Positions 35,940 through 42,755 of a stretch of 64,000 nt of DNA are shown one piece after another; position 1 is the stretch's first letter, and the number at the start of each line of letters is the position of its first letter. The notes under the pieces are model-generated. The model saw only the letters and a list, made by a program, of their open reading frames with translations. It was not told the origin of the DNA and did not search any database. A program made the translations under genes and the position numbers. The stretch covers positions 62,001 to 126,000 of the forward strand of contig NZ_JABSNO010000006.1 of the NCBI RefSeq assembly GCF_013294015.1. The letters run 5' to 3'. Source of the DNA: Frigoriflavimonas asaccharolytica. Lineage in GTDB: Bacteria; Bacteroidota; Bacteroidia; Flavobacteriales; Weeksellaceae.

Positions 35940-37127
35940 CTACAAAGTATATCCTTTTTTAGAGCCAATTTCTAAGATAGATTTTTCTATGGCTTTTCCT
36001 AAATCATCGCTTTCAGAATTTCCACGTTTTTTAAGTTCTGCATCAATGAATGTTTGTCTTTTTACCGCCAATTCTGAAATTTGTTTTTGTAAGCTAGATC
36101 TCTCTTTGCTGTTTTTATCTACTATTTTAGCAATTTCTGCTTTGGTTTTTCCTTGTAATTCTGCGGGAAGTTCTTCGTTTTTAATTTCTCCTAAAAAATC
36201 TTTGTCGCTTTCTGCTTTGTCCACCATATCCCAAGATTCGTTTTTGTATGCAGCAGATTTTGTTTTTGCAACCGATCTTTCTACAGCATTTGCTTTAGAC
36301 ATTGATGCTGCATTTTGATCTTGTACTGCTTGCATTCTTTTTTTCTCCATTCCTTGGCTTCCGTAACTGATGTATGTTTCGTTTAATTTCACGTTGCAAT
36401 CGGAAATTTTATCATCGTACGGAGTTGCAATAAACACTACTTTTTGGTTAGAATCTATGTTGAAATATTTTCCAAGACCTTGTGTCGCTCCATCTTGCCA
36501 GAAAGTTCGGATTCCTTCTTCTCTGTTTCCGCAGAATATAGTATTGATGAAAATATTTTTCTTTTTCGCATCTGCAATTGCTTCTTTATAATTAATTCCT
36601 TGCTGATCGAAGGCTTCATTTCCTGCGATATAAACCAATTTCATGCTTTTGTCAGAATTATTCCATTCTAATTGTGATGTAGCATCTTTAATTACTGCAC
36701 CACAATATTCGGTTCCGCCATTGGTTTTTAAGGCGAATAATTTTTCAGAGATTAAATCTAAATCTTGCGTTAAAGGTGTTACTTTTCGTATCCAATTTTT
36801 GTCCGAAATTCCATCGTTTCCATATTCGTACAAGGCGATTTCTATTTTTGGTGCTTTTCCGTTGTATTTCAAAGTGGTCAAAGTATTTACAATGTTCCAA
36901 AGTCGAGATTTCGCTTGATCGATCAAACCGTCCATAGAACTGGAAGTGTCTAATAAAATAGCAACTTGAATGGTGTTTTCCGCTAAATTATTTGCAGAAA
37001 TTGGATTTTCAATTTTTGGTTCTACAGAATTTCGATGGTTTATTTCTGTTTTATTTCCCAATTTTACTGATGCAAAAGCAAGAACTGTACTTGCTAAAAT
37101 TCCTGTGATTAAAAAGTTCTTTTTCAT
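35940..37127 (-). CDS. Secreted vWA-domain protein
   Basis: 395 aa with signal peptide MKKNFLITGILASTVLAFA. The von Willebrand A domain starts at IQVAILLDTSSSMDGLIDQ, giving the MIDAS DxSxS metal site; later MIDAS residues fall around TNGGTEYCG. A helical, Lys/Glu-rich C-terminal region follows (QKQISELAVKRQTFIDAELKKR). It is probably periplasmic and binds a protein partner. It is the distal gene of a group with the MuiA-like and SIMPL proteins. Confidence 0.8.
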   Translation of the reverse strand: MKKNFLITGILASTVLAFASVKLGNKTEINHRNSVEPKIENPISANNLAENTIQVAILLDTSSSMDGLIDQAKSRLWNIVNTLTTLKYNGKAPKIEIALYEYGNDGISDKNWIRKVTPLTQDLDLISEKLFALKTNGGTEYCGAVIKDATSQLEWNNSDKSMKLVYIAGNEAFDQQGINYKEAIADAKKKNIFINTIFCGNREEGIRTFWQDGATQGLGKYFNIDSNQKVVFIATPYDDKISDCNVKLNETYISYGSQGMEKKRMQAVQDQNAASMSKANAVERSVAKTKSAAYKNESWDMVDKAESDKDFLGEIKNEELPAELQGKTKAEIAKIVDKNSKERSSLQKQISELAVKRQTFIDAELKKRGNSESDDLGKAIEKSILEIGSKKGYTL

Positions 37128-37156: not shown

Positions 37157-37289
37157 AGTCCGAAGTCCGAAGTCAGAGGTTTTAAGTATGTAGAAATTGT
37201 TTTGGGTTTATTTGATTTTAATTCTCAATTTTATCTTTTAGTCTTCCATCTTCCATCTTCGGTCTTCGGTCTTCCAACTTCCGACTTCT
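37157..37289. repeat. Two heptanucleotide arrays in opposite orientation
   Basis: AGTCCGA x2 plus AGTCAGA at 37157-37177 (GAAGTCC units on the plus strand), and seven units of the type GTCTTCC/ATCTTCC/GTCTTCG at 37241-37289, which read GAAGACC/GAAGATG on the minus strand. The second array begins at the MuiA stop codon. Confidence 0.7.
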
Positions 37290-38880
37290 ACCTTTGATAA
37301 TACCTAATCTGCATTTCTTTCGGATATTTTACTTCGTAAGAAAGATCAATTTTTTCGGTTGCCCCACTCGAAATGTTTCTGGACCAAAGAATACTTCCTG
37401 TTTTCTCGTCTAAAACTCCGTTGCCAATTTCTAAAGATTTCACCGATATTTTTGAATTTTCGCTGATTGGAAGTTGATCCAAAATCTCTAATTCTATGGT
37501 TTCTTTCGTATTATTTCTGATGCTTGTTTGGAAAGTTTCGGTTTCCCATTTGTTAGAATTCAGGATTTTCTGCGAAGTTTTATCTTCAACTTTAATTCTT
37601 TTCACCACAATTCTTTCATCAACTCCTAAAGAAATTGGGAATTCATCTTTTACATAATTGCTTGTAATATTGGTTTTGCCGATGTAATTTTCCTCAAAAT
37701 AAATATTCGCTTCTCCAGAAATCAAGTTCAAATTTTGCCAGTTTTTCACAAATGCCATCAAGAAAACTTGATTATTTATTTTCGGAACAACGTGATATTT
37801 GTAGGTTGCATCCACAGTTTTCTTGTCCAGAATTACGTATTGTTCCTTTTCTTGGCTCATGATATTTTGCTTGTAATTCAGCTCATACAAAACATTCATT
37901 TGATTATCTGAAACCGTCGCTACAGGAATTTGAACTGGTGCTGCATCTTGTCGCATTTGATAAGAATTAGATTCCATTGAAACAGATTTTTCTGCGTAAC
38001 CTTTTTTTACTTCATCATAATTATGAGCCGTATATTCTGCAACATAAAGTGGTGATAAAATTGGGCGATTTTGGTTATAAGTTGGTTTGTAGGTAGAAAC
38101 AAATAATTTTATATTGGTCCAATCTTGTCCTGTTTTTTGATAAATTTTTCCTTTATAAATTATTTCTAGAGGTTTTTTGGTAGAAATTGCTTTCAAATCA
38201 TAAGATGGAACCCAACCTGCGTTTGCAACAATGTAGCTTACACCTAAATCAAAATTCATGTCATTTTCGGCAAGAATTTCTAAAATCAATTCTTTTTTAT
38301 TCAAATTTTTATTGGTTTGCTCTTCTGCCAATTGTTTGTTGAATTTTGATACATTTTCATTTAAAGCAGACTTTTCTTCATTCAGCAAATAGAGTTGGTT
38401 TTCTATTTCCAGCATTCTTTTTCCATAAAATTCAGTGAGTTTTATCAATTGTTCTTGCGGTGTAGATTTATCATTGGTAGAAATTTTTAGATTATCATTA
38501 ATGATGTTTTTTTCGCCAGAAAGAGCATTAATTTTAATATTTAAAAGATTGATTAACCTCTGATTTTTCTTGAGTTCAACATCCAATTTTTTTTCCACTT
38601 CAGACAATTCATTTGCTTTCAAATAATTATTAAAAGGCGTGATAGAAAGTAGAGTAGTGTTCTTTTCTAAATTGATTTTGTAGGTGTTTTCATCTAAATC
38701 ATTAGGAAGATTGATGATTTTCACCAGGTTTCTGCCTTTTTTTAAATTCACTTGAGTGTTTCCAAAAACTTTGGCGCCTTGCAAAAAAACGGTGGCTTGT
38801 TTTACGGTGATTTCTTTTTTAATTTCTTGTGCATTTAAGAATGAAAAAGAGAGGATTAGGATGAAGAAATAGGATTTCAT
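37288..38880 (-). CDS. MuiA/DUF4139-family envelope protein
   Basis: 530 aa from the ATG at 38880, chosen for signal peptide MKSYFFILILSFSFLNAQ. N-terminal beta domain (VKQATVFLQGAKVFG) of the DUF4140 type, a long coiled-coil (about 90-190; VEKKLDVELKKNQRLINLL), then the DUF4139 beta-sandwich region with LGVSYIVANAGWVPSYDLKAI and GEANIYFEENYIGKTNI. The family includes 'mucoidy inhibitor' MuiA; its biochemical role is unknown. A candidate LytTR operator lies 62-93 nt upstream of the start codon. Confidence 0.82.
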   Translation of the reverse strand: MKSYFFILILSFSFLNAQEIKKEITVKQATVFLQGAKVFGNTQVNLKKGRNLVKIINLPNDLDENTYKINLEKNTTLLSITPFNNYLKANELSEVEKKLDVELKKNQRLINLLNIKINALSGEKNIINDNLKISTNDKSTPQEQLIKLTEFYGKRMLEIENQLYLLNEEKSALNENVSKFNKQLAEEQTNKNLNKKELILEILAENDMNFDLGVSYIVANAGWVPSYDLKAISTKKPLEIIYKGKIYQKTGQDWTNIKLFVSTYKPTYNQNRPILSPLYVAEYTAHNYDEVKKGYAEKSVSMESNSYQMRQDAAPVQIPVATVSDNQMNVLYELNYKQNIMSQEKEQYVILDKKTVDATYKYHVVPKINNQVFLMAFVKNWQNLNLISGEANIYFEENYIGKTNITSNYVKDEFPISLGVDERIVVKRIKVEDKTSQKILNSNKWETETFQTSIRNNTKETIELEILDQLPISENSKISVKSLEIGNGVLDEKTGSILWSRNISSGATEKIDLSYEVKYPKEMQIRYYQR

Positions 38881-38941
38881 TGTAGAAGTATTTGTTGATT
38901 TCTGTAGTAAAACTATCAAAATAATGGCCCCGAAATTTCCA

Positions 38942-38973
38942 AACTTGGTGAATCGGGGTTTTCACTTGGTGAA
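38942..38973. promoter_or_regulatory. Candidate LytTR operator upstream of the muiA-like gene
   Basis: ACTTGGTGAAT at 38942-38952 and again at 38963-38973: identical direct repeats with a 21-bp period, two DNA turns. The same repeat with the same period occurs at 39972-40002. Confidence 0.72.
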
Positions 38974-38977
38974 TGGT

Positions 38978-39913
38978 TTATTTTGGAATATTGAATGATT
39001 TTAAATCGCCATTAGAATTCATTATTAAATATTCTTTCTTGTTGGTCTGCACTTTTTTAATCTTCATTTTCACCTCGTACATTATCTGAATGACGGGTTC
39101 TAAAACGACAGGATTTAGTACAAAATCAAAATCTTTATCGAAAATAGGTTGATAATAAATGGTTGAATTTTTTGAAACCTGATTGATATTCGAGGAACGA
39201 ACAAGATCGAGCGAAGAACTGTTGTACGCTTCATAAGATTTGTACATTTCCACCGGTAGTTTGGTGATGAAACCATCGGAAAATGTTTTATCTTCGTTTA
39301 TAAAAGTTTGAGCAGCAATAGTTTCGTAACTTTTTACTTTTTCTGCAAGCATCGTTTTTGCTTTGGCTGAAACTTCTTTTTTTATGTCGTCTAATTTTGT
39401 GGAATAATAATCTACGCGAACCAAATCGTAAATTTCATTTTCTGCAAGATTTTTTATAAAACCATCTAATTGTTGCGCATTAGAAAATTTAATATGAATG
39501 TTTTTTTTAATTTCAAAACCTTTTGGAATTTCGTTGTAGGTTCTTTTACTAAACAATTTTCTCACGGTTTCGTAATCGTAAACTGGCACAAACGAAATCA
39601 TATCTGTAAAAATTTCCACGTTTTTTTGAAGTTTAATCTGTTTTAAAGATTCAGAAATTCTCTCATCTATAATTTGATTGGCTTCAGTTTGCGTTTTTCC
39701 CGTTTGCGTAACGCTGAAAATAGCAACAAATTGGTCTGCTTTTACATTGGCCATTCCTTTCACGTTGATGTAAATTTCGCCATCTCTTGGTGGACTTACA
39801 ACGACTGCATTTTGCGAAAAATCGTTAATTGTTCTGTAATTTATATTACCAGAAACTTGAGAATAGCAAATTGTATTAATGCTTAAAAGTGCGATGAATG
39901 TTAGCGATTTCAT
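38978..39913 (-). CDS. SIMPL (DUF541) domain envelope protein
   Basis: 311 aa from the ATG at 39913 (signal peptide MKSLTFIALLSINTICYSQ). The SIMPL domain starts at GEIYINVKGMANVKADQFVAIFSVTQTGKTQTEANQIIDERI, continues with paired strands and helices (GFEIKKNIHIKFSNAQQLDGFIKNL), and ends with a strand near QIMYEVKMKIKK. Such proteins are periplasmic or outer-membrane-associated; their role is poorly known. It is divergent from the LytS-type kinase gene, with a shared operator between them. Confidence 0.8.
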   Translation of the reverse strand: MKSLTFIALLSINTICYSQVSGNINYRTINDFSQNAVVVSPPRDGEIYINVKGMANVKADQFVAIFSVTQTGKTQTEANQIIDERISESLKQIKLQKNVEIFTDMISFVPVYDYETVRKLFSKRTYNEIPKGFEIKKNIHIKFSNAQQLDGFIKNLAENEIYDLVRVDYYSTKLDDIKKEVSAKAKTMLAEKVKSYETIAAQTFINEDKTFSDGFITKLPVEMYKSYEAYNSSSLDLVRSSNINQVSKNSTIYYQPIFDKDFDFVLNPVVLEPVIQIMYEVKMKIKKVQTNKKEYLIMNSNGDLKSFNIPK

Positions 39914-39936
39914 AATATTTTTGTTTAATGATGAAG

Positions 39937-39944
39937 CAAATTTA
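39937..39944 (-). promoter_or_regulatory. -7 box of the SIMPL gene
   Basis: TAAATTTG on the minus strand fits TAnnTTTG exactly, 24 nt before the start codon at 39913. A TTTG directly next to the LytTR-like operator lies 24 nt further upstream, slightly long for a -33 box. Confidence 0.55.
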
Positions 39945-39971
39945 GGATTATGAAGCAGCGATTTTTGGCAA

Positions 39972-40002
39972 ACTTGGTGAATCTCGCTTTTCACTTGGTG
40001 AA
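39972..40002. promoter_or_regulatory. Candidate LytTR operator between SIMPL and kinase genes
   Basis: ACTTGGTGAA at 39972-39981 and 39993-40002, period 21 bp, with an intervening sequence similar to the 38942 copy (TCTCGCTTTTC here, TCGGGGTTTTC there). It ends 5 bp before the -33 box of the kinase promoter, the usual activator position. Confidence 0.78.
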
Positions 40003-40007
40003 GCGTA

Positions 40008-40037
40008 TTTGATAGACAATTTATATATCTATCTTTG
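40008..40037 (+). promoter_or_regulatory. Bacteroidota-type promoter of the LytS-like kinase
   Basis: -33 TTTG at 40008-40011, 18-nt spacer, -7 TATCTTTG at 40030-40037 (exact TAnnTTTG). The predicted start of transcription falls at about the GTG start codon at 40042, so the mRNA may be leaderless. Confidence 0.7.
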
Positions 40038-40041
40038 TATT

Positions 40042-41817
40042 GTGAAAATTTTTAAAAATTATTTCCTGATTTTCCTTTTGTCTTTTGGTGGAATTTTTTC
40101 TGCGCAAAATTCAAATGTAGTGTCTGAAATTAAAAGCCAATCCAATCAATTAGAAAATGCCATCAAAAACAATGATGTAAAAAAACAAGCGGAAATTTAT
40201 ATTTCGATTGCAGATACTTATTTTAATCAAAGCAACTTTTCTAAAAGCGAAGAGAATTTAAATAAAGCAAAAAATATTTACGAAAAAACTAAAGATAAAA
40301 ATGGTTTAGCCACTGTTTCCAGAAAATTAGCGCAAACCCAAGAAAGCCAAAATAAAACCAAAAGTGCTGCCGCAAATTATGAAAAAGCGGCAAGTTTTAG
40401 CAAATCTAAAAAGCAAGAAATTACAAACAGAAACGATTATTCTCGGGTTGCTTCAAAATCTTTGGAAGCGAAGGAAAAAGCCGTTCAAGGAAATATAATT
40501 TTGAATGATGAATCTTCTAATTCTGATGAATTGGCTAAAGATTATTCTAACCTCGCAGAAATTAATGTTCAACAAAAAAACATTCCGAAAGCTGCAGAAA
40601 ACCTGAATAATGCCTACGAAATTTCTAAAACTTCGCAACCAAGTCAAGCCATTGTTATCAACCAAAAAATGACGGATTTATATGTAGATAATAAAAATTT
40701 TGATAAAGCAATTGAGGTTAAAAAACAAGTTTTAAAAGAAGATTTTGTAAAAGGAAATTCTGAAGAAAATGTAAATCAAATTCAAGAATTGGCAGATATT
40801 TATTTACAAAAAAATGATGTGAATGAAGCGATCAAATTATTTAAAAATGCGTATCAAATTTCGTTGGAAAAAGGCCACACTTTGGAAGCCCAAAAATCTG
40901 TAGAAAAACTCGATAGTTTATACCAATCTGCGGGAAATACTACAGAATCAATGCTTTTATATAGAGATTTCTTGGCAAAATTGCCCAATCTGGTTCAAAA
41001 CGATCGAGGTTTAGTGGATTCAAAAATTTTGGAAGAAACGGAAAATAAGATTGCTCTTCTAGAAAAGGAAAAGCAATTGAAAGATGAACTCATTCGGAAG
41101 AAAAATATCTTTAATTATGCATTAATTGCTGCGTTGCTTTTACTTTCTGGCTTGGTATTTTTCATTTTTAAAACCTTGAAGAAAGTGCAGATTAAAAACA
41201 AAAAAATCGCCTTGCAATCTCTGCGAAGAGAAATGAATCCGCATTTTATTTTTAATAGTTTAAATTCTGTTAATCAATTTATTGCAACCAATAATGAATT
41301 GGAAGCGAACCAATATTTAACCAAATTTTCAAAATTAATGCGTGGCGTGATGGAAAATTCTACGGAAGATTTCATTCCTTTTTCGCAAGAATTAGATTTA
41401 TTGACCAATTATCTTTCCCTTGAAAAAACACGTTTCACTGATAAATTTGAGTTTGAAATTACGGTAAATGAAAATTTGAATCAGCAAAATTTGTTGATTC
41501 CAGGAATGAAGATTCAACCCTTTTTAGAAAATGCAATTTGGCACGGATTGCGGTATAGAACCGAAAAAGGTTTTCTGAAACTAAATTTTGAAAAAGAAAT
41601 AGATACTTTAAAAATCACTATCGAAGATAATGGAATTGGCATTGAAGAAAGTAAAAAACAAAAAACTGAACACCAAAAAAATCGAGAAGGACGCGGAATG
41701 AAAAATACTTTGGAACGTATAAAACTGCTGAATGATTTGTATAAAAGAAATATCATTTGTGAGGTAAAAGATTCTGAGAATGGTGTTTTGGTGGAATTGA
41801 AAATGAATTTAGAATAA
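40042..41817 (+). CDS. TPR-containing LytS-type sensor histidine kinase
   Basis: 591 aa from GTG at 40042, which gives signal peptide VKIFKNYFLIFLLSFGGIFSAQ; a TTG at 40009 would fall in the promoter. Periplasmic TPRs (about 25-320), one membrane helix (NYALIAALLLLSGLVFFIF, near 365), then a His_kinase (LytS/YehU) domain with His401 in REMNPHFIFNSLNSVNQFI and ATPase box ENAIWHGLRYR and EDNGIGIEES. It partners with the LytTR regulator 200 nt downstream. A LytTR-like operator sits directly before its promoter, suggesting positive autoregulation. Confidence 0.9.
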   Translation: MKIFKNYFLIFLLSFGGIFSAQNSNVVSEIKSQSNQLENAIKNNDVKKQAEIYISIADTYFNQSNFSKSEENLNKAKNIYEKTKDKNGLATVSRKLAQTQESQNKTKSAAANYEKAASFSKSKKQEITNRNDYSRVASKSLEAKEKAVQGNIILNDESSNSDELAKDYSNLAEINVQQKNIPKAAENLNNAYEISKTSQPSQAIVINQKMTDLYVDNKNFDKAIEVKKQVLKEDFVKGNSEENVNQIQELADIYLQKNDVNEAIKLFKNAYQISLEKGHTLEAQKSVEKLDSLYQSAGNTTESMLLYRDFLAKLPNLVQNDRGLVDSKILEETENKIALLEKEKQLKDELIRKKNIFNYALIAALLLLSGLVFFIFKTLKKVQIKNKKIALQSLRREMNPHFIFNSLNSVNQFIATNNELEANQYLTKFSKLMRGVMENSTEDFIPFSQELDLLTNYLSLEKTRFTDKFEFEITVNENLNQQNLLIPGMKIQPFLENAIWHGLRYRTEKGFLKLNFEKEIDTLKITIEDNGIGIEESKKQKTEHQKNREGRGMKNTLERIKLLNDLYKRNIICEVKDSENGVLVELKMNLE

Positions 41818-41873: not shown

Positions 41874-41938
41874 ATCCGTGTAAATCTGTGAAATCTGTGC
41901 GGAAAATTTGCCCACAGATCTCACAGATTTGCACAGAT
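41874..41938. repeat. CACAGATT-family palindrome between kinase and regulator genes
   Basis: CCGTGTAAATCTGTGAAATC (from 41876) pairs with CACAGATCTCACAGATTTGC (from 41913) with few mismatches. It is the same repeat family as at 29701-29993 and separates the kinase from its regulator. Confidence 0.75.
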
Positions 41939-42020
41939 GTTATTAAATAATTTAGATAATTTTGTCCTCTATGGGTTTAAAACTTTGAACATTTAACCAC
42001 AAACCTCGAATTTCAAGTAT

Positions 42021-42755
42021 ATGAAAATATCAGCAGTAATAATAGACGACGAAAAGATTGCAAGAGAAGTTCTGCGGAATTATCTCACCAAATATTGTCC
42101 GCAAGTTGAGATTTTGGGGGAAGCAGAAAACATCAAAGAAGCCATTCCTTTAATCGCAGAAAAACGACCTCAATTGGTGTTTTTGGATGTAGAAATGCCT
42201 TTCGGAAATGCTTTTGATGTGCTAGAAGCAACGAGTGAATTTTCTTATGAAACGATCTTTATCACAGCGTTTTCCGAGTATTCTTTGCAAGCATTAAATA
42301 AATCTGCGAGTTATTATATTTTGAAACCGATTGACATTCAAGAATTAATTTTGGCGGTGAATAAAGTTGTAGAAAGTGTAGAGAAGAAGGAAAGTTTTAA
42401 TCGCAATAAAATTCTATTAGAAAATCTCAAATTACAACCAGAAAAACAGCAACTCATTTTGCCCACTTTACAAGGTTTTGATGTGGTGAAAACGGAAGAT
42501 ATTGTTCGGCTACAAGCAGATGGAAATTTCACTCAAGTTTATTTAATTGACGGTACAAAAAAAATGGTTTGTCGCTTTCTGAAACATTTCGATGATTTGT
42601 TAGAAAAGCCTTTTGTGCGGGTTCATCGTTCGCATATTGTGAATACAACTTTTGTAAAATCTTATCATAAGAACGGCGAAATTCTTTTACAAGATGGTGC
42701 AGAAATAGAAGTTTCTGCGAGTTATAAAGATGGATTTTTGGGGCTTTTTAAATGA
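42021..42755 (+). CDS. LytTR-family response regulator
   Basis: 244 aa. Receiver domain with IIDDEKIAREVLRNYL, phospho-acceptor in QLVFLDVEMPFGNAFD near residue 56, and Lys in YYILKPIDI. The C-terminal LytTR DNA-binding domain starts near 140 with GFDVVKTEDIVRLQADGNFTQVYL and contains KPFVRVHRSHIVN and SASYKDGFLGLFK. LytTR domains bind two direct repeats about 21 bp apart, which fits the sites at 38942 and 39972. It probably controls the SIMPL, MuiA-like and kinase genes. Confidence 0.93.
   Translation: MKISAVIIDDEKIAREVLRNYLTKYCPQVEILGEAENIKEAIPLIAEKRPQLVFLDVEMPFGNAFDVLEATSEFSYETIFITAFSEYSLQALNKSASYYILKPIDIQELILAVNKVVESVEKKESFNRNKILLENLKLQPEKQQLILPTLQGFDVVKTEDIVRLQADGNFTQVYLIDGTKKMVCRFLKHFDDLLEKPFVRVHRSHIVNTTFVKSYHKNGEILLQDGAEIEVSASYKDGFLGLFK

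Follow-up and report, generated by a model that had tools for sequence, protein, structure and literature searches.

In a stretch of 64,000 nucleotides of the Frigoriflavimonas asaccharolytica genome, hereafter the window, two direct-repeat elements of 21-bp period stand in front of genes for envelope proteins and for a sensor kinase. Judging from sequence comparison, it is highly probable that the linked LytTR response regulator (42021-42755) activates, through these repeats, an envelope regulon together with its own kinase gene. We infer from the same material the binding by this protein, activation over repression, control by phosphorylation and an envelope signal. The DUF4139 (MuiA-like) and SIMPL proteins concerned are widespread and poorly understood, and placing DUF4139, SIMPL and VWA proteins under one two-component pair with a concrete operator would give a direct route to their function.

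The repeats and their locus

The genes of the locus and the two elements, which we call operators according to their proposed role, are as follows.

35940..37127, minus strand: VWA-domain protein gene (Pfam PF00092), downstream of the DUF4139 gene
37288..38880, minus strand: DUF4139/DUF4140 (MuiA-like) gene (Pfam PF13598, PF13600), putative target of operator 1
38943..38973, minus strand: operator 1, two 10-bp direct repeats of 21-bp period upstream of the DUF4139 gene
38978..39913, minus strand: SIMPL (DUF541) gene (Pfam PF04402), putative target of operator 2
39972..40002, plus strand: operator 2, two 10-bp direct repeats of 21-bp period, common to the divergent kinase (plus) and SIMPL (minus) genes
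40042..41817, plus strand: sensor kinase gene (Pfam PF06580, TPR families, PF02518), putative target of operator 2
42021..42755, plus strand: LytTR response regulator gene (Pfam PF00072, PF04397), proposed operator-binding protein

The two direct repeats of 21-bp period described in an earlier note on this DNA are real, and both match ACTTGGTGAA-N11-ACTTGGTGAA with 0 mismatches (38943-38973 reads ACTTGGTGAATCGGGGTTTTCACTTGGTGAA and 39972-40002 reads ACTTGGTGAATCTCGCTTTTCACTTGGTGAA). The coordinates of the second were exact, while the first begins at 38943 and not at 38942; the element is present as described but had been drawn too short, as both elements read AAACTTGGTGAATC-N4-TTTTCACTTGGTGAA. 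The two operators are near-identical over 34 bases and share AA ahead of the first copy, TC behind it and TTTTC ahead of the second. Read toward the DUF4139 gene, operator 1 is TTCACCAAGT-N11-TTCACCAAGT, and the half-site with its flank is partly palindromic (TTCAC-CAA-GTGAA). The start codon of DUF4139 is found 62 bp downstream of operator 1, and that of SIMPL 58 bp downstream of operator 2, the latter a placement on which the note had not commented.

Allowing up to 3 mismatches, the window contains 2 matches against 0.02 expected, a number reached in 0 of 100 shuffles. The genome scan for ACTTGGTGAA-N11-ACTTGGTGAA that the note had proposed returned, at up to 2 mismatches in 3.43 Mb, the two elements that it had named and no other, and an extended pattern in which the TT before the second copy was fixed found the same two only at up to 3 mismatches.

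The kinase is composed of a signal peptide, TPR repeats, one membrane helix and LytS-type His_kinase and HATPase domains (membrane features recognised by eye); its H-box NPHFIFN is visible in the translation and its PF06580 score of 76.4 bits makes it a LytS-type histidine kinase linked to the regulator. The multi-pass LytS sensor (5TM-5TMR_LYT) is absent, Pfam giving TPR families only on the N-terminal side of the kinase domain. The membrane helix lies between the TPR part and the kinase domain, and therefore the TPR part is probably periplasmic. The LytTR response regulator that had been assigned to 42021-42755 is borne out by a receiver domain (PF00072, 62.1 bits) and a LytTR DNA-binding domain (PF04397, 47.2 bits), both above cut-off; among the matches listed by a PDB search for a solved LytTR relative, there were receiver domains only. 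The DUF4139, SIMPL, VWA and kinase proteins all start with signal peptides (by eye), and in relatives the VWA gene is co-directional with the DUF4139 gene or carries its own site.

Two further features were observed around the regulator gene. Between it and the kinase gene (41876-41960), there are repeats of AAATCTGTG/CACAGATTT resembling a short dispersed repeat, and a lone small Cas2-like gene (PF09827, 43038-43331) adjoins it, no CRISPR context being apparent around this gene in the part read.

Promoter geometry and the proposed mechanism

The Bacteroidetes -7 box was taken as TAnnTTTG/A, sequences were anchored on the site, and offsets were counted from the far repeat end to the start of the box. 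Three promoters were delimited in the window.

38908..38915, minus strand: DUF4139 promoter -7 box TAGTTTTA, 58 bases from the far end of operator 1
39937..39944, minus strand: SIMPL promoter -7 box TAAATTTG, 58 bases from the far end of operator 2
40008..40011, plus strand: kinase promoter -33 element TTTG, 5 bp past operator 2
40030..40037, plus strand: kinase promoter -7 box TATCTTTG, 58 bases from the far end of operator 2

The kinase promoter is thus found just past the repeat, as had been claimed (TTTG at 40008-40011, N18, then TATCTTTG at 40030-40037), and the offset is exactly 58 at all three promoters. It is also 58 at 106 of the 117 target sites and 59 at 10 more. At kinase sites, an offset of 58 or 59 was found in the kinase direction for 56 of 98 and in front of the divergent genes for 47 of 77. 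The TTTG element is missing from the target promoters, including at the -33 position of the window's DUF4139 and SIMPL promoters; of the window's three promoters, only that of the kinase contains it. An activator sitting immediately upstream of RNA polymerase would require this arrangement.

Position alone is no proof of regulatory sign, and the site abuts the -33 region, so that the repeats might instead be LytTR operators at which the regulator represses. We consider this unlikely, as 27-28 bases separate the end of the site from the -7 box, with no overlap between the site and either the box or the expected -33 position, and as target promoters devoid of the TTTG -33 element are those expected if activator-dependent.

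According to the activation mechanism that we favour, two regulator molecules would occupy the two 10-bp copies, which share one face of the helix at a distance of two turns, and from this place, immediately upstream of the -33 position, would help RNA polymerase to start at the -7 box. The TPR-sensor kinase, with its probably periplasmic sensor, would phosphorylate the LytTR regulator, and the output would be a small envelope regulon of DUF4139, SIMPL and VWA proteins. The kinase gene itself would also be activated, in a positive feedback. The target promoters should be activator-dependent because they have no -33 element, and the kinase promoter should keep a basal level because its TTTG is present.

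Operator 2 looks like a single operator for two divergent promoters because the geometry is equal on both sides (-7 offset 58), which suggests that one 31-bp element can serve both. Whether the direct-repeat element is more generally a two-way switch, at which the regulator activates divergent promoters in either orientation with the -7 box at 58 on both sides, is to our mind evenly balanced. The near-palindromic half-site with its flank (TTCAC-CAA-GTGAA) may be the reason why both orientations work and may thus help the two-way action. If the switch is true, an always-on kinase promoter would be coupled to activator-dependent envelope promoters, in a circuit kept across much of Flavobacteriales.

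The likely start codon of the kinase is a GTG (40042) situated 4 bases past its -7 box (40030-40044), and because of this proximity the kinase mRNA may be leaderless; the same layout was seen at the kinase start of another locus (L109, TATCTTTGTTTTATG).

Conservation and drift among relatives

We compared 80 regulator loci from named genomes, nearly all of them Chryseobacterium. Each contains 1-4 sites with a spacer of 11 and a constant orientation relative to the kinase, and scans of the relatives with spacers of 10 and 12 bases gave weak matches only (4-mismatch or rarer). The kinase and regulator genes adjoin in nearly all relatives examined, and the set includes 98 distinct kinase-adjacent sites. 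Sites precede whichever of the DUF4139, SIMPL and VWA genes heads its transcription unit; indeed, they stand before the DUF4139 gene, a second SIMPL gene (224 aa, Pfam; SIMPL224), a unit-leading VWA gene and the kinase gene. The distance from site to ORF start is usually 58-69 bp (DUF4139, SIMPL224 and SIMPL in most cases), and of 33 site-DUF4139 pairs, 32 have the site 58-63 bp ahead of the DUF4139 start.

Sites are kept even where the targets are remote from the pair. In one genome (G207), 2.0 Mb separates the kinase and regulator genes from the VWA-SIMPL genes and a further SIMPL gene, which still have sites; in a second (G239), a distal DUF4139-VWA pair is 19 kb off and still has its site; in a third (G003), the DUF4139 gene has a perfect site on a separate contig, although the kinase gene of that genome has none. 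This implies that the element is read by a diffusible regulator. Consistent with the expectation that the repeats would be conserved upstream of orthologues, the DUF4139, SIMPL and kinase sites are all kept in relatives, unlinked targets included. The gene set is wider than the two envelope genes initially proposed, and takes in VWA genes as well as one or two SIMPL paralogues at most. In 21 sites, the operator is common to the kinase gene and a divergent gene (L041, 2105-3856, and loci like it) whose product is an amidohydrolase carrying a SnoaL-like domain, which is a possible further member of the regulon.

At the level of the family, 247 genomes were sampled, a kinase hit at E <= 1e-100 and a motif with up to 2 mismatches being counted as positive. 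Orthologous loci with the pair but without the motif would, according to the note, refute the proposal; run as a test, this criterion brought no refutation, the motif being present in 96 of the 97 kinase-positive genomes and in 0 of the 150 kinase-negative ones, with 1-5 sites per motif-positive genome. The reversed pattern (read backward), used as a control, had 0 matches in the 247 genomes. Fisher's test of kinase against motif gives 4e-69, a figure that is only descriptive because the genomes are related. The sole kinase-positive genome without the motif (G080) has a diverged repeat of 21-bp period at the same place. Presence is patchy within genera, one of which (g5) has 2 genomes with both kinase and motif and at least 2 with neither, and therefore kinase and motif appear to come and go together; both are also found in the single positive genome of another genus (g9). 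Orthologues of the DUF4139 target (at least 62% identity) are confined to kinase-positive genomes, so that a motif marking the target and a motif marking the regulator are inseparable for that gene; the DUF4139 paralogues of kinase-negative genomes (27-33% identical) are without motif.

In more distant relatives, with regulators 43-68% identical, the sequence of the motif appears to drift with the regulator while the 21-bp period and the position hold. The diverged repeat of G080 (regulator 63% identical) consists of GAATGGGTAAAT twice, exactly 21 bp apart, between the VWA and kinase genes. In a Flavobacteriales group of genus g35 (regulator 65-68%), first copies are mostly AAATGGTGAA- or AATGGGTCAA-like and second copies are ACTTGGTGAA or ACTTGGTAAA. 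Loci with a regulator at 43-49% often contain AATGAGTAAA-like copies 21 bp apart, one of these loci having a perfect motif, and a genome of the same class and another family (G509) has AATGGGTGAA-N11-ACTTGGTGAA upstream of the kinase. A motif-free scan of 21 distant kinase-upstream regions for periods 13 to 32 recovered period 21 in 12 of 21 loci at a cut of 8/10 (any other period in at most 5) and in 9 of 21 at 9/10 (any other in at most 1). No clear period-21 repeat was seen upstream of the kinase in 3 of the 21, even at 7/10; one of the three (L144) has a 9/10 repeat further upstream.

These data bear on the identity of the binder. The partly palindromic half-sites (TTCAC-CAA-GTGAA) would suit a helix-turn-helix dimer, and another, unlinked transcription factor that merely shares its regulon with the pair might bind the repeats. 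This is very unlikely, since motif presence tracks the kinase/regulator pair among close relatives, the motif drifts alongside regulator divergence at the same place, and 10-N11-10 is a LytTR format. We favour the LytTR protein as binder because almost all loci examined pair the kinase with this DNA-binding protein.

The near-identity of the window elements over 34 bases could also point to a recent duplication or to an abundant short repeat devoid of function, which is extremely improbable given only two copies genome-wide and a position, spacing and promoter distance kept in about 100 species while the surrounding bases change; chance and simple duplication were ruled out by the shuffles, the genome-wide count and this conservation. 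A role in RNA, for example as leader structure or attenuator, would agree with repeats upstream of coding sequences but is hardly credible, as a conserved -7 box follows them at a fixed distance and they would thus not be transcribed from these promoters.

Comparison with known LytTR systems

The binding sites of LytTR regulators consist of two repeats of 9-11 nt with 11-13 nt between them and have no shared consensus, and the YpdB operator is GGCATTTCAT-N11-GGCATTTCAT (PMC4847170). The 10-N11-10 format of the window and its relatives falls within this definition of a LytTR operator (PMC4847170), and the fixed place upstream of target promoters expected of such an operator was found, with the -7 box at 58 or 59 in 116 of 117. 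The regulon is new and of a known kind (YpdB-like LytTR operators), its novelty being weakly supported by the lack of any description of it in the literature searched, from which subscription journals were mostly absent; nor was a LytTR binding motif for Flavobacteriales found in that literature.

The closest parallel is YpdA/YpdB with the yhjX promoter in E. coli, which likewise associates a LytS-type kinase and a LytTR regulator with 10-bp repeats and an 11-bp spacer. Our system differs in the sequence of the repeat, in having several promoters, the kinase's own among them, in its TPR sensor in place of a multi-pass LytS sensor, and in its targets, which are envelope proteins and not a transporter. 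AgrA of Staphylococcus aureus is a LytTR regulator that has direct repeats near divergent promoters and is subject to autoregulation. It uses separate sites for its two promoters, whereas in our system a single 31-bp element has a -7 box at equal distance on either side. BtsS/BtsR (YehU/YehT) of E. coli is the same general kind of LytS/LytTR pair, with a longer operator spacer than here and a single transporter target. The BtsS sensor is a pyruvate-binding 7-TM one (PMC10653868), in contrast to the TPR sensor of our kinase.

A probable LytTR binding motif is gained for Flavobacteriales, and the natural series of regulator and operator variants could inform on how LytTR proteins choose their DNA. 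Finally, of the F. johnsoniae lines that had been coevolved with an antibiotic producer, 5 of 5 carried a mutation in one or other of two genes, for a LytTR regulator and for a histidine kinase of the neighbouring locus tag (FJOH_RS09515/FJOH_RS09520, PMC10197871). This is a possible functional lead: should these genes be orthologous to the window pair, the output of the system would bear on antibiotic susceptibility.
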